Shown here piece after piece: positions 7,330-12,659 of a stretch of DNA of 64,000 nt. The stretch spans positions 1-64,000 of the forward strand of contig VXME01000160.1 in assembly GCA_009861545.1 (NCBI GenBank). The letters are read 5' to 3'. A program made the position numbers and the translations under genes. Every line of letters starts with the position of its first letter. Positions within the stretch are counted from its first letter, which is position 1. The notes below the pieces were generated by a model, which was given only the letters and a program-made list of their open reading frames with translations, had not been told where the DNA came from and searched no databases. The stretch comes from Acidobacteriota bacterium. Its GTDB lineage: Bacteria; Acidobacteriota; Vicinamibacteria; Vicinamibacterales; UBA8438.

Positions 7330-10300
7330 ATGCCCGACATCGAGCGGCGTCCAGGCCGCCGAGCCGGACCGAGCATGCGCCTGATCGCGCATGCCGCGAC
7401 GCGAATGCGTCGGCGCTCGGTCGCGGTTGCCCTGACCGGCGCGAGCCTCCTCGCTCCGGCGGTGCCGGCGGCGGCGCAAACGCCCGGCCCGATCATCGTG
7501 GTGCCGTTCGCGAACGTGAGCCGGCAACCGGCCGACGACTGGATCGGCGCCGGTCTCGCCGAAACCATCGCAGCCGATCTGCGGAACGCGGGGCTCAGCG
7601 TGGTCGGGCACGGCACGGTCGACGCCGCCGATGCCCCCGCAAGGTACGGAAACGGAAACGGAAACGGAAACGGCTGGTTCGACGGCACTGCGCTCGACAC
7701 CTACCACCGGCGCGGTGTCGCCTGGCTCGTCGACGGAACACTTCAGCGAGTGGGAGAACGGTTGCGGATCACGACCCGCCTCGTGGATGTCGCTACCGGC
7801 GCGACCGCGTTCGGCACCCGCGTCGACGGCGACTTCGGCGACCTGTTCGACATCCAGGACGAGCTGGGTGCGGCGCTCGCCGGGCACCTGTCGACCGACT
7901 CGAGAACGGCGGCCGGCAGGGCGCCGGCGGCAGGTGTGGCCCCGCCGGCATCCACCCCGCGACCCGAGAGCGTCGCGTCCGCGGCGCCGGCCCGCATCGT
8001 TCCGGCCGAGCCCGAACGGAACGTGACCGGTGCGCTCGCGTTCGGCGAAGCGGGGGCCGGCGCGCCGCCAGCCCGCCCCCAAGGCAGGCGTCCGGGCCGA
8101 GGCGGCGGATTCACTCCAACGCCCAGAACCCGCCCGACGGTCGTCATCGGGCGCACGAGCAACCCGCCGGACATCGACGGCCGCCTGGACGATTCGGTCT
8201 GGGAGACCGCCACCCACATCACGGACTTCATCCAGATCGCGCCCATCGAGGGCGCGCCCGGCACCGAGGAGACCGAGGTGTGGATGGCGTACGACAACGA
8301 CCATCTCTACTTCGCCTTCTATGCCCATTACACGCGGCCGGAGGTGATGCGCATCAACCGGGCCGACCGCGAGGAGATCCGCGGGGACGACCGGATGTCC
8401 GTGCTTTTCGACCCTTTTCTCGATCAGCAGCGCGCCTACCAGTTCGAAGTGAACGGCTACGGCGTGCAGTCCGACTCGCTCGTCAACGCGGACGGCAGCA
8501 CCGGCTTCTCGCGATCGAGCGGCAGCTCGTCGGCCTCACGGGGCGGCAGCGGACCGCGGCGGAGCGGCGGCAGCGGCATGAGCCAGTCCGGACAGTTCGG
8601 CATCCGCGGCGACCAGTCCTGGGACGCCCTCTTCGACACCGCCGGGCAGGTCGTCGACGACGGCTGGACGGCCGAGATGCGCATCCCCTTCAAGAGCCTC
8701 CGCTACCCGTCGCGCGCCGGCGGCGAGGATCACCGCTGGGGCTTCCAGATCACGCGCGTCATCCGGGACAAGTCGGAGGCGCAGTCGTGGTCGCCGATCT
8801 CGCGCGGCGTCGCGGGTCAGCTCACGCAGTTCGGGGTGCTCGAGGGCCTGTCGGACATGTCCCGGAGCCGCAACCTGGAGTTCCTCCCCGAGCTGACCGG
8901 GTTCCGCCTCGGTTCGCTCGACAGGGACACCGGCGTCTTCGATCGCGGCGACCCGGGCGGCGAGCCGGGGCTCGGCGTCAAGTACGGCATCACGCCCAAC
9001 CTGACTGCCGACATCACCTTCAACCCCGACTTCTCGCAGATCGAGTCGGACCGGCCGCAGATCGAGACCAACCAGCGCTTCCAGCTCTTCTATCCGGAGC
9101 AGCGCCCGTTCTTCCTGGAGGGACAGGAGATCTTCCAGACGGCGACGCCGCTGACCCTCGTCCATACCCGCACGATCGCCGACCCCGACTTCGGCGGGAA
9201 GCTGACCGGCAAGGTGGGCCGGACGACGCTGGGCGTGGTCGTCGCCGACGACGTGGCGGCGGGCCGGCTCGTCGACGATACGCACCCCGAGTACGGCGGC
9301 ACCGCGCAGACCGTCCTCGGACGCGCCCGCTACGACTTCTACGCCGAGTCGTACCTCGGCGCCATCATGACCGACCGCGAGTTCGGCAACGACCACAACC
9401 GGGTGGCCGGCGTGGACGGGCGTTTCCGCCTCGGGCGAACGCACCGCATCAGCTTCCTGGCCGCGGGATCCGAGACGCGGGACGCCGACCTCGGCGCGCT
9501 CTCCGGAGCGGCGGTCGAGGCGGACTTCTCGAAGCAGGGACGCAATCTCAGCTACAACGTCGCCTACAGCAGCATCGATCCGGGCTTCCACACCAACACC
9601 GGCTTCCTGCCGCGGGTCGATCTGCAGCAGACCAGCGGCACCGTGTCGTACCGCTGGTGGCCCGAATCGAACCTGATGACGTGGGGCCCGTCGGCCACCT
9701 ACCTGCGCCTCTACGACCACGCCGGCGTGCTGCAGGACGAGCAGCTCCAGGGCATGGCGAGCTTCTCGTTCCGCAACAACATGGCCATCACCGGCATGGT
9801 CAACCGGGATCTGGAGCGCTACGGGGCAATCGACTTCCGCAAGACCGGCTACGGCTTCTTCGGCGTCATGAGCGCGCGGATCCTCTCGATCTACGGCGGC
9901 TACAACTGGGGCGACGGCATCCTCTACGCGGACGACCCATACCTGGGCCGCTCGACCATCGGCAACGTGAACTTCCGCTTCCAGCCCACCTCGCGGCTGC
10001 GCACGGAGTTCAACATGGTCTCGAGCGACTTCGTGAATCCGATCGGCGGCGAAGGCATCTTCCACGTCAAGATCTTCCGCAGCCGCAACACCTACCAGTT
10101 CACCGACCGGCTGCTCGTGCGCCACATCGCCGAGCACAACACGCAGTCCGTGACGGTGGGCAACAACATCCTCTTCACCTACCGCATCAACGCCGGCACG
10201 GTCGTCTTCCTCGGCTACGATGACCGCTTCCAGCGCGGCACCGAAATCGACAGCCTGCTGTTCCCGTTCAACTCGCTGCAGCGGACGAACCGGGCGTTCT

Positions 10301-10332
10301 TCGGGAAGCTGTCCTACCTGTTCCGCTACTGA
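7330..10332 (+). CDS. CBM9-like/DUF5916 outer-membrane barrel protein with N-terminal FlgO/TolB-like domain
   Basis: A 1000-residue exported protein. After a signal sequence (VAVALTGASLLAPAVPAAAQ) comes an alpha/beta domain, PIIVVPFANVSRQPADDWIG, which resembles the FlgO/TolB N-terminal and CsgG-like domains. It is followed by a Pro/Ala linker. A carbohydrate-binding-family-9-like domain follows (about residues 270-470: DIDGRLDDSVWETATHITDF, DDHLYFAF-like strands, RIPFKSLRYPS). The C-terminal DUF5916 region has many aromatic beta strands (FNPDFSQIESDRPQIETNQR, FYPEQRPFFLEGQEIF) and ends in LSYLFRY, consistent with a barrel ending in an aromatic residue. Such proteins are common in Acidobacteriota and Gemmatimonadota; their substrate is unknown. 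A Ser/Gly-rich insert lies near residues 395-420. An alternative ATG lies at 7375. Confidence 0.85.
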   Translation: MPDIERRPGRRAGPSMRLIAHAATRMRRRSVAVALTGASLLAPAVPAAAQTPGPIIVVPFANVSRQPADDWIGAGLAETIAADLRNAGLSVVGHGTVDAADAPARYGNGNGNGNGWFDGTALDTYHRRGVAWLVDGTLQRVGERLRITTRLVDVATGATAFGTRVDGDFGDLFDIQDELGAALAGHLSTDSRTAAGRAPAAGVAPPASTPRPESVASAAPARIVPAEPERNVTGALAFGEAGAGAPPARPQGRRPGRGGGFTPTPRTRPTVVIGRTSNPPDIDGRLDDSVWETATHITDFIQIAPIEGAPGTEETEVWMAYDNDHLYFAFYAHYTRPEVMRINRADREEIRGDDRMSVLFDPFLDQQRAYQFEVNGYGVQSDSLVNADGSTGFSRSSGSSSASRGGSGPRRSGGSGMSQSGQFGIRGDQSWDALFDTAGQVVDDGWTAEMRIPFKSLRYPSRAGGEDHRWGFQITRVIRDKSEAQSWSPISRGVAGQLTQFGVLEGLSDMSRSRNLEFLPELTGFRLGSLDRDTGVFDRGDPGGEPGLGVKYGITPNLTADITFNPDFSQIESDRPQIETNQRFQLFYPEQRPFFLEGQEIFQTATPLTLVHTRTIADPDFGGKLTGKVGRTTLGVVVADDVAAGRLVDDTHPEYGGTAQTVLGRARYDFYAESYLGAIMTDREFGNDHNRVAGVDGRFRLGRTHRISFLAAGSETRDADLGALSGAAVEADFSKQGRNLSYNVAYSSIDPGFHTNTGFLPRVDLQQTSGTVSYRWWPESNLMTWGPSATYLRLYDHAGVLQDEQLQGMASFSFRNNMAITGMVNRDLERYGAIDFRKTGYGFFGVMSARILSIYGGYNWGDGILYADDPYLGRSTIGNVNFRFQPTSRLRTEFNMVSSDFVNPIGGEGIFHVKIFRSRNTYQFTDRLLVRHIAEHNTQSVTVGNNILFTYRINAGTVVFLGYDDRFQRGTEIDSLLFPFNSLQRTNRAFFGKLSYLFRY
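7648..7671 (+). repeat. Four GGAAAC units inside the DUF5916 gene
   Basis: Four perfect tandem copies of GGAAAC encode a Gly-Asn run in the N-terminal domain. Because the unit is six bases, slippage would change length by two residues without breaking the frame. Confidence 0.9.
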
Positions 10333-10451
10333 GCGCATCCCTGCGCGCCCCTTCCGGCGAGAGCGGCGGCAGGCCCGTCGACGCGGCGGCGTCGTTCGGG
10401 TCATGATGGTAGGGGACCGGCGAGATCTTCCGCCGTAACCAGGAGCACACC

Positions 10452-12659
10452 ATCCGCGAACAACTGGATTTCCGCGTAGAGGGCCTCGACTGCAACGAGG
10501 AAGCGACCCTGCTGCGCGACGCGCTCGGGGACCGCGACGGCGTTCACGGCGTCTCGTTCCACGTCGTCGACGCCCGCATGACCGTCGACGCCGACACGGA
10601 CGTGTTCGGCCCCGAGCGGGTCGCCGAGGCGGTGTCCCGGCTGGGAATGCGAGCCGAACCGTGGGACGCGGCGCCGCGGGCCGAGTCGTGGTGGGATGCT
10701 CACGGCCGCCACGCGCTGGTGGCGACAAGCGGACTGGCGCTCGTCGGCGGGCTCGTCCTGCACATCGCGGTGGCCGGCGGGAGCGTGCTGGAGACCCTGC
10801 TCGCGCACGCGCACGGGGCGCACGGCATAGACAGTTCCGTCCTCCTGCTGCTGCTGGTCGGTATCGTCGCGGGACTCTTCCACGCCACGCCGAAGGCGGT
10901 GGCGTCTCTCGTGCGCCTGCGGCCGGATATGAACGCGCTGGTGCTGGTCTCGGTCGTCGGCGCCCTGTTCCTGTCCGAGTGGGCCGAGGCGGCGGTACTG
11001 GCCTTCCTGTATGGGCTGTCGGGACTACTAGAGAACTGGAGCGCGCGGCGGGCGCGCAACGCCATCGGCTCGCTGCTGCGCATCACGCCGGCGACGGCGG
11101 CGGTGGTGCACGGCGACCACGAGCACCGGACGCCGGTGGACCGCGTGGCGGTGGGCGCGCACGTGCGGGTGCGACCGGGGGAACGGGTTCCGTGCGACGG
11201 GGTGGTGACCGACGGCAGCTCCTACGTCGACCAGGCGCTGGTCACCGGCGAATCCATACCCGCCTGGAAGACGGCCGGCGACGAGGTGTTCGCGGGCACG
11301 GTGAACGGCCACGGGGTGCTCGATCTGCGCACCACGCGGACCGCATCGGACACGATGCTGGCCCGCATCACCCGCATGGTCGGCGAGAGCCATCACCACC
11401 GGGCGCCGACCGAGCGCTTCATCGATCAGTTCGCCCGCTACTACACGCCGCTGATGTTCGCGGTAGCGTTCGCCGTGGGGGCGGCTCCCCCGCTGCTGCT
11501 CGGCGGCGACTGGCAGCACTGGTTCTACCAGGCGATGCTCATCCTGCTGATCTCGTGCCCCTGCGGCCTGGTGATCTCGACGCCGGTGACGATCGCCGCG
11601 GCCATCACGTCGGCCACGCGGCACGGCGTGCTGATCAAGGGCGGCTCGCACCTCGAGGAACTGGGACGGCTGCGGGCGGTCGCCTTCGACAAGACCGGGA
11701 TCATCACGCGCGGCGAGCCGGACGTGCGCGAACTGCGGCCCGCGAACGGCCGCTCGGAGGACGAGGTACTGTCCCGCCTGCTGGCCATCGAGCTGCGTAG
11801 CGAGCATCCGCTGTCGCGCGCCATCATCCGTCATGCGCGCAAGCGCGGGGTCGAGCCGGCCAAGCTGACCGACTTCGCGGCCGTCGAGGGGCGCGGCGCC
11901 GAGGCGGTAATCGACGGCAAGCGGTTCTGGGTGGGAAGCACGCGTTTCGCCCGCGAGCAGACCGCCCTCGAATCGTTCGAGCCGGAGCTCGCGCAGATGC
12001 AGCGGGCCGACGAGACCGTCGTCGTCTGCGGCGCCGGCGAGGATGTCTGGGCGCTCGTCGCGCTGGCGGACCCGGTGCGCCCGGAAGCGCCGTCCAGCGT
12101 GGAGCAGATCCACCGCCAGGACCTCCGGACCGCCCTGCTCACCGGCGACAACGCGGCGACGGCCCGCAGCGTCGGCGCCCGCGTTCACGTGGCGGACGTG
12201 CGCGCCGAGCTGCTGCCCGACGGCAAGGCGGACGCCATCCGGAAGCTCATGAAGCGCCACGGACCGACCGCGATGGTGGGCGACGGAATCAACGACAGCC
12301 AGGCGCTGCTGGCCGCCTCGGTCGGCATCGCGATGGGCGGCAACGCCACCGACGTAGCGGCCGAGTCGGCCGATGTCGTGCTGATGCAGGACGACCTGCA
12401 GAAGCTCCCCTTCCTGGTAAGCCACGCCCGCCGGGCTCGGCGGGTGATCATCGAGAACATCACGTTCGCCCTCGGCGCTAAGGCGCTCTTCCTCGCCTTC
12501 ATGGCCTTCGGCGCCGCGACCCTCTGGATGGCGGTGGCCGCCGACATGGGCGCGTCGCTGCTGGTCACGTTCAACGGCCTGCGGATGCTGCGATCGGGCG
12601 CGGTCGGCGGCCGGGCATCGCCGGAACCGGCGCTGGCGGGAGCCGGGCAGGAAGCGTAG
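10452..12659 (+). CDS. P1B-type Zn/Cd/Pb-exporting ATPase (ZntA/CadA type)
   Basis: A heavy-metal ATPase of about 735 residues. An N-terminal metal-binding domain (LDFRVEGLDCNEEA, Zn-type DC-x-x-E motif) precedes the membrane domain. The metal-site motif CPCGLVISTPV is near residue 369, the phosphorylation site DKTGIITRGEP near 413, the HP motif is SEHPLSRAI and the hinge is GDGINDSQALLA near 610. The last-helix motif VAADMGASLLVTFNGLR carries the Asp typical of ZntA rather than copper pumps. The frame is open from 10413, but no ATG, GTG or TTG occurs before 10578, which lies after the metal-binding Cys. The only ribosome site (AGGAG at 10441-10445) is six bases before an ATC codon at 10452, which I use as provisional start. 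The conservative start is ATG 10578. Confidence 0.9.
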   Translation: MREQLDFRVEGLDCNEEATLLRDALGDRDGVHGVSFHVVDARMTVDADTDVFGPERVAEAVSRLGMRAEPWDAAPRAESWWDAHGRHALVATSGLALVGGLVLHIAVAGGSVLETLLAHAHGAHGIDSSVLLLLLVGIVAGLFHATPKAVASLVRLRPDMNALVLVSVVGALFLSEWAEAAVLAFLYGLSGLLENWSARRARNAIGSLLRITPATAAVVHGDHEHRTPVDRVAVGAHVRVRPGERVPCDGVVTDGSSYVDQALVTGESIPAWKTAGDEVFAGTVNGHGVLDLRTTRTASDTMLARITRMVGESHHHRAPTERFIDQFARYYTPLMFAVAFAVGAAPPLLLGGDWQHWFYQAMLILLISCPCGLVISTPVTIAAAITSATRHGVLIKGGSHLEELGRLRAVAFDKTGIITRGEPDVRELRPANGRSEDEVLSRLLAIELRSEHPLSRAIIRHARKRGVEPAKLTDFAAVEGRGAEAVIDGKRFWVGSTRFAREQTALESFEPELAQMQRADETVVVCGAGEDVWALVALADPVRPEAPSSVEQIHRQDLRTALLTGDNAATARSVGARVHVADVRAELLPDGKADAIRKLMKRHGPTAMVGDGINDSQALLAASVGIAMGGNATDVAAESADVVLMQDDLQKLPFLVSHARRARRVIIENITFALGAKALFLAFMAFGAATLWMAVAADMGASLLVTFNGLRMLRSGAVGGRASPEPALAGAGQEA

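Follow-up and report, generated by a model that had tools for sequence, protein, structure and literature searches.

A conserved AUC/AUU codon as the probable start of a ZntA-type Zn/Cd ATPase family in Acidobacteriota

Introduction

Initiation factor IF3 represses translation initiation at non-canonical codons, and very few start codons of this kind have been characterized experimentally (PMC5472188). Examples include the classic case, infC, which starts with ATT in E. coli and with ATC in Streptomyces, and sigR of Streptomyces, in which a GTC start is repressed by IF3 (PMC5472188). In S. aureus, ccpN starts with AUA and cvfC1 with AUU, and these starts are reported to hold expression down (PMC13009471 and PMC5472188); AUU and AUA starts gave about 10% of the AUG reporter output in poor medium, and ccpN gave up to 30% in rich medium (PMC13009471). 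The AUU start of E. coli pcnB is likewise reported to hold expression down (cited in PMC13009471/PMC5472188). In the portions of the open-licence literature that we searched, no non-canonical start was described for a metal transporter or for the ATPase family studied here.

Results and Discussion

An ATPase frame without an early canonical start

In this work, we analyzed a stretch of 64,000 nucleotides from an Acidobacteriota bacterium (hereafter the window). It contains an ATPase frame on the + strand that is open from 10413 to 12659, with an in-frame TAG at 10410-10412, and in which the earliest ATG/GTG/TTG is the ATG at 10578-10580. The Cys codon of the GLDCNEE motif lies at 10491-10493, thus 5' of this ATG. 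The sequence bears out an earlier note on this DNA, which held that there is no canonical start from 10413 to 10578, that a start at 10578 would remove the metal-binding Cys, and that AGGAG stands six bases before an ATC at 10452. Because the Pfam HMA match starts at about 10470, the region 5' of 10578 is coding. The features of the locus are as follows.

10402..10407, + strand: -10-like element CATGAT, putative promoter element about 45 nt 5' of the start codon (10-sequence alignment)
10441..10445, + strand: Shine-Dalgarno (SD) AGGAG, then CACACC (six bases), then ATC
10452..10454, + strand: putative non-canonical start codon ATC (homologue conservation, SD, third-position periodicity directly 3' of ATC)
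10452..12659, + strand: predicted CDS of a ZntA-type Zn/Cd-exporting ATPase, 735 aa from ATC (Pfam, NCBIfam, PDB 4umv)
10470..10646, + strand: N-terminal HMA metal-binding domain with GLDC-x-x-E (Pfam PF00403)
11244..11255, + strand: actuator motif TGES (sequence reading; motif check on the window copy, L001)
11556..11564, + strand: transmembrane metal site CPC (sequence reading; motif check on L001)
11688..11699, + strand: phosphorylation motif DKTG (sequence reading; motif check on L001)

The Pfam matches of the frame are HMA, E1-E2_ATPase, and Hydrolase, and the HMA match (PF00403; E 1.3e-5; 25.9 bits, cut-off 24.8) covers residues 20-78 of the 748-residue frame. The NCBIfam models TIGR01525 and TIGR01512 (heavy-metal and cadmium ATPase subfamilies) scored above cut-off and the ZntA models scored below (PRK11033, 532.4 bits, cut-off 1005; NF033775, 464.6 bits, cut-off 1240); the protein is therefore placed in the ZntA-type subfamily and not called a ZntA equivalog. 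The closest solved structure is a zinc-transporting ATPase (PDB 4umv; E 1.5e-118). The domains and motifs by which we defined the ZntA type were all found, namely, HMA, E1-E2 ATPase, and HAD together with TGES, CPC, DKTG, and GDGIND, and the catalytic motifs of the window copy, DKTG included, are intact. P1B-2 is the class name of ZntA-type ATPases, and TGES, CPC, DKTG, and GDGxND are the usual names of their motifs. From the motifs, we infer that zinc and cadmium are the substrates.

Among 10 aligned sequences, the -10-like element reads CATGAT in six, TATGAT in one, and CATAAT in one; it is treated here only as a putative promoter element because scanning 10320-10480 for sigma-70 promoters gave no match. 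The predicted RNA fold at the start (10413-10490) was no better than those of shuffled sequences (z 0.70). Rfam gave no match at gathering score in the whole window, and the only match in 10300-10600 was at chance level (E 0.64).

Conservation of the ATC/ATT codon

A start-less stretch alone is possible by chance, and we therefore placed the weight on codon conservation. Homologues were drawn from named genome contigs, relatives, a phylum sample, and the order to which a Bryobacterales genome belongs, as best matches and, for the order, also at places beyond these. In the window's family, matches were found at 1e-150 in 13 of 28 genomes; the phylum sample had matches at 1e-180 in 16 of 396 genomes, and the order had matches at 1e-110 in 77 of 257 genomes. 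The nearest named contigs belong to Vicinamibacterales/Acidobacteria MAGs. Among the matches listed, 206 loci (L numbers) have both HMA and CPC anchors and provide 161 distinct start regions. Left out of the counts were 19 loci without these anchors, L002-L006 (pieces of the own-genome copies), and two places from the order search (G436:C4 and G575:C5); G435:C288 was included as L063. A phylum search with the L087 protein, which had no matches at a strict threshold, was not used in the counts. Among the family matches, one (L018/L055) is without the N-terminus, and G027 (44% identity) falls outside the clade described below.

The homologous codon was defined as the one 13 triplets 5' of the HMA Cys codon, and ATH denotes ATT, ATC, or ATA. 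In a FastTree phylogeny of the 161 rows, drawn with a midpoint root, SD-preceded ATC/ATT codons are confined to one clade of 72 rows (support 96; 99 for 70 of its rows). The homologous codon in this clade is ATT in 27 members, ATC in 16, ATG in three, ATA in none, and some other codon in 26, such that 43 of the 72 distinct members have ATC/ATT. An SD core lies 4-10 nt 5' of the codon in 40 of the 43 ATH members versus none of the 26 "other" members, counts that are not independent events as the rows are related by descent. At the same spacing in an 89-row sister group, the SD core is found in 12 of 77 "other" and none of six ATH rows. The ATH codons of L146, L166, and L172 have no SD upstream, and a GTG at -36 could be the true start in L166 and L172. 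With at most 300 nt upstream scanned, 30 of the 43 ATH members have no ATG/GTG/TTG between the in-frame stop and codon -24; a canonical codon is present upstream or nearby in 13, including the own-genome paralogue. When these 72 rows were placed in a tree of their own, it required a minimum of seven ATC/ATT switches and nine changes among ATH, ATG, and other.

The earlier note had weighed rare non-canonical initiation against an ATG-to-ATC base error and had proposed aligning the N-termini of homologues. When aligned, the 12 distinct rows of the family subclade have ATC/ATT in 10, ATG in one (L051), and ACG in one (L017, with an ATG at -72). The 10 include a paralogue from the window's own genome (contig C63), in which ATC follows AAGGAG. 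The idea that the true genome has ATG where the assembly reads ATC could draw on the homologues with ATG at this codon: L013/L051, which is closely related, and the distant L150 and L224. However, ATC/ATT recurs across the clade in many assemblies, some with multi-megabase contigs (ATT in L216, 9.48 Mb; L226, 4.86 Mb; L227, 4.44 Mb), and the same-genome paralogue has ATC as well. The homologues exclude a base error for the family as a whole and leave it a nearly negligible probability at this locus; they support the note's suggestion of rare non-canonical initiation.

Onset of coding constraint

We compared six close ATPase sequences in pairs and counted substitutions separately at the first, second, and third codon positions. 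The rates are near-saturated and even across positions from -48 to -13 (0.65/0.68/0.65) and uneven yet unlike a coding pattern in the 12 nt 5' of the start codon, which include the SD (0.32/0.30/0.00). In codons 2-13, the rates are 0.044/0.044/0.30, and in codons 43-142, they are 0.083/0.071/0.256. In the DNA alignment and in the substitution counts of these six sequences, third-position constraint sets in right after the ATC/ATT codon.

These rates bear on where else translation might begin. Use of the downstream ATG at 10578, with no HMA domain made, is extremely unlikely. This ATG is common to all 10 aligned family sequences, as observed in a 26-kb synteny control whose other output was confused by antisense ORFs, but codons 2-13 and 14-42 show third-position constraint like the remainder of the gene, and the Pfam HMA match overlaps the region that would be lost. 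Furthermore, the sequence reads no SD upstream of 10578, and some distant homologues have Leu there, consistent with a position within the HMA fold.

We also consider it very improbable that initiation uses another non-standard codon nearby (CTG 10464) or, by way of a frameshift, the ATGATG that lies upstream at 10403. Nine of 10 aligned close sequences retain CTG/TTG (Leu) at the former, but it is 18 nt from the SD, and L017 has CTC for this Leu whereas L054 lacks the codon. The ATGATG is present in seven of the 10, but its ATG, which lies inside CATGAT, is an unlikely start because L051-L053 do not have it, and its spacing from the ATC varies. SD spacing tracks ATC/ATT. The start at ATC 10452 remains the preferred reading: its position, coding onset, conservation, and gene-specificity (see below) are supported by the sequence comparisons, and we infer actual initiation at this codon. 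The gene has no usable canonical start, has an SD-preceded near-cognate codon at the onset of coding, and keeps that codon in its orthologues.

Gene-specificity and infC

A codon-usage scan with thresholds fixed beforehand covered 449.5 kb of the window's genome (G000) and selected 246 genes. A coding signal of at least 4 nats 5' of the first canonical start was found in 11 genes; the ATPase stands out clearly with 22.5 nats, and the other 10 reach at most 7.8. The scan cannot place the start because the ATPase coding signal opens at the start of the frame, 10413. A scan of 400 kb of the Bryobacterales genome G639, in which ORFs containing N were skipped, flagged six of 253 genes, the highest at 5.4. 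The ATT-start ATPase of G639 itself was not flagged because an ATG sits inside its GMDC motif; the scan therefore measures rarity and not full detection.

As a positive control, infC was read in 12 genomes, six of the window's family and six of Bryobacterales. In the former (L271-L275 and L282), the stretch read contains no canonical start; the SD is followed by ATT in G000, G001, G003, and G026, by ATA in G008, and by ATC in G019. In Bryobacterales, an in-frame ATG is available to all six infC genes, which thus give no sign of AUU control of IF3 itself in that lineage.

Relatives, palindrome, and neighboring genes

There are 15 distinct Bryobacterales members of the clade without DKTG (L074, L077, L085, L087, L095, L103, L122, L123, L215, L216, and L223-L227), of which 14 have an ATT start and one has ATG. 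DKTG is replaced by DRQG, DRHG, DRAG, DRSG, GRAG, HGEG, or DKTA, and none of the 15 matches the GDG[IV]ND pattern; TGES, CPC, and the aspartate of TM8 are retained in all 15. Because dN/dS is low (about 0.06-0.19 in five pairs), these members are maintained by purifying selection, and, judged by their motifs, they would be catalytically dead pseudo-ATPases. Among the open-licence papers listed as matches, judged by title and abstract opening, none is about DKTG-less metal pumps.

The paralogue in the window's genome (L007:1745-2959, - strand, contig C63) has 405 aa from ATC. Three frame-keeping gaps have removed half of its HMA domain along with the TGES and nucleotide-binding regions. Its dN/dS versus L012 is higher, about 0.41. 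It lies downstream of and adjoining a Fur-family gene, for which the best NCBIfam match is Zur (99.3 bits, cut-off 167); the gene divergent to it is one that we take to be a probable GTP cyclohydrolase.

A palindrome, TTGAGAA-N4-TTCTCAA, occurs 32 bases 5' of the start in L060, 16 bases in L160 and the DKTG-less clade, and about 165 bases in L167/L174, and is likely an operator. For the Bryobacterales members, we also considered a GAGGA/TTCTC hairpin that would sequester the SD; the minimum-energy folds predicted for L122 and L087 contain it. However, the same palindrome precedes the SD in L060 and lies about 165 bases upstream in L167/L174, which favors a DNA operator.

An overlapping DNA element of this kind, and not weak initiation, could be what keeps ATT/ATC, a reading to which we give a low probability. 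In the 15 DKTG-less members and L160, a palindrome like TTGAGGA-N4-TTCTCA, matching 11-12 of the 14 arm positions of the searched motif, enters the start codon, which is ATT in 14 of the 15 and in L160. However, L060 starts with ATC although its palindrome (14/14) precedes the SD, the window's family is without the palindrome (best 7-9/14, scattered) yet keeps ATC/ATT, and L224 combines an 11/14 palindrome with ATG. Selection on the start codon itself remains the preferred reading.

Beside many clade members (among others, L087:9591-9938 on the - strand, L122, L077, L160, and L165-L167), there is a divergent gene for a small His/Cys-rich protein (HVHGxxCGHTA...DYLHDGxLH...); the two copies tested have no Pfam or NCBIfam match. 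In L132, an outgroup ATPase, there is no ATG/GTG/TTG before the HMA domain except the ATG of GMDC; AGGAGG precedes a CTG, a possible CUG start.

Proposed role of the start codon

Taken together, the evidence makes it quite probable that the gene encodes a ZntA-type Zn/Cd exporter starting at AUC 10452, with AUC/AUU kept by selection for weak, IF3-sensitive initiation. The AGGAG six bases upstream would set AUC 10452 in the P site, and the initiator tRNA would read it, such that the protein would begin fMet-Arg-Glu-Gln-Leu; a start here would therefore retain the whole HMA domain. Because IF3 discriminates against AUC/AUU, the pump would be made at a low level that tracks IF3. By analogy with the described cases, a low yield from ATC is plausible, and IF3 probably represses the pump, a dependence that would parallel that of infC in the same genome. 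Selection for weak initiation would then hold the codon as AUC/AUU across the Acidobacteriota pump clade, and the simplest interpretation of the codon is that it acts as a built-in brake, limiting the amount of pump.

A broader and rather unlikely idea is that the whole pump clade, pseudo-pumps included, is wired to start-codon fidelity, such that synthesis of the zinc pump reads out the state of IF3 or of the ribosome. The translation machinery is a major zinc store, and if the idea is true, metal export would be coupled to that machinery. The family offers natural ATC, ATT, and ATG versions in which codon and IF3 effects are directly testable. Gene callers limited to ATG/GTG/TTG would be expected to trim the metal-binding domain off such pumps.

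Comparison with known systems

A conserved weak start codon is a known kind of feature, and, within the literature searched, its presence in this ATPase family appears to be new. Judged by the comparisons made here, the ATPase is a new, deeply conserved addition to the small class of genes with non-canonical starts. Like infC of E. coli (AUU) and Streptomyces (ATC), it has an AUU/AUC start with an SD; however, infC autoregulates its own repressor, whereas the ATPase, as a transporter, is not known to feed back on IF3. The genes pcnB, ccpN, cvfC1, and sigR also have non-canonical starts, but none is homologous to the ATPase and none encodes a metal pump. Compared with ZntA, a P-type ATPase that exports Zn, Cd, and Pb (PDB 4umv), the ATPase has the same domain order, HMA domain, and TGES, CPC, DKTG, and GDGIND motifs, and differs in its HMA loop, which is GLDC-x-x-E and not C-x-x-C, and in its putative AUC/AUU start.
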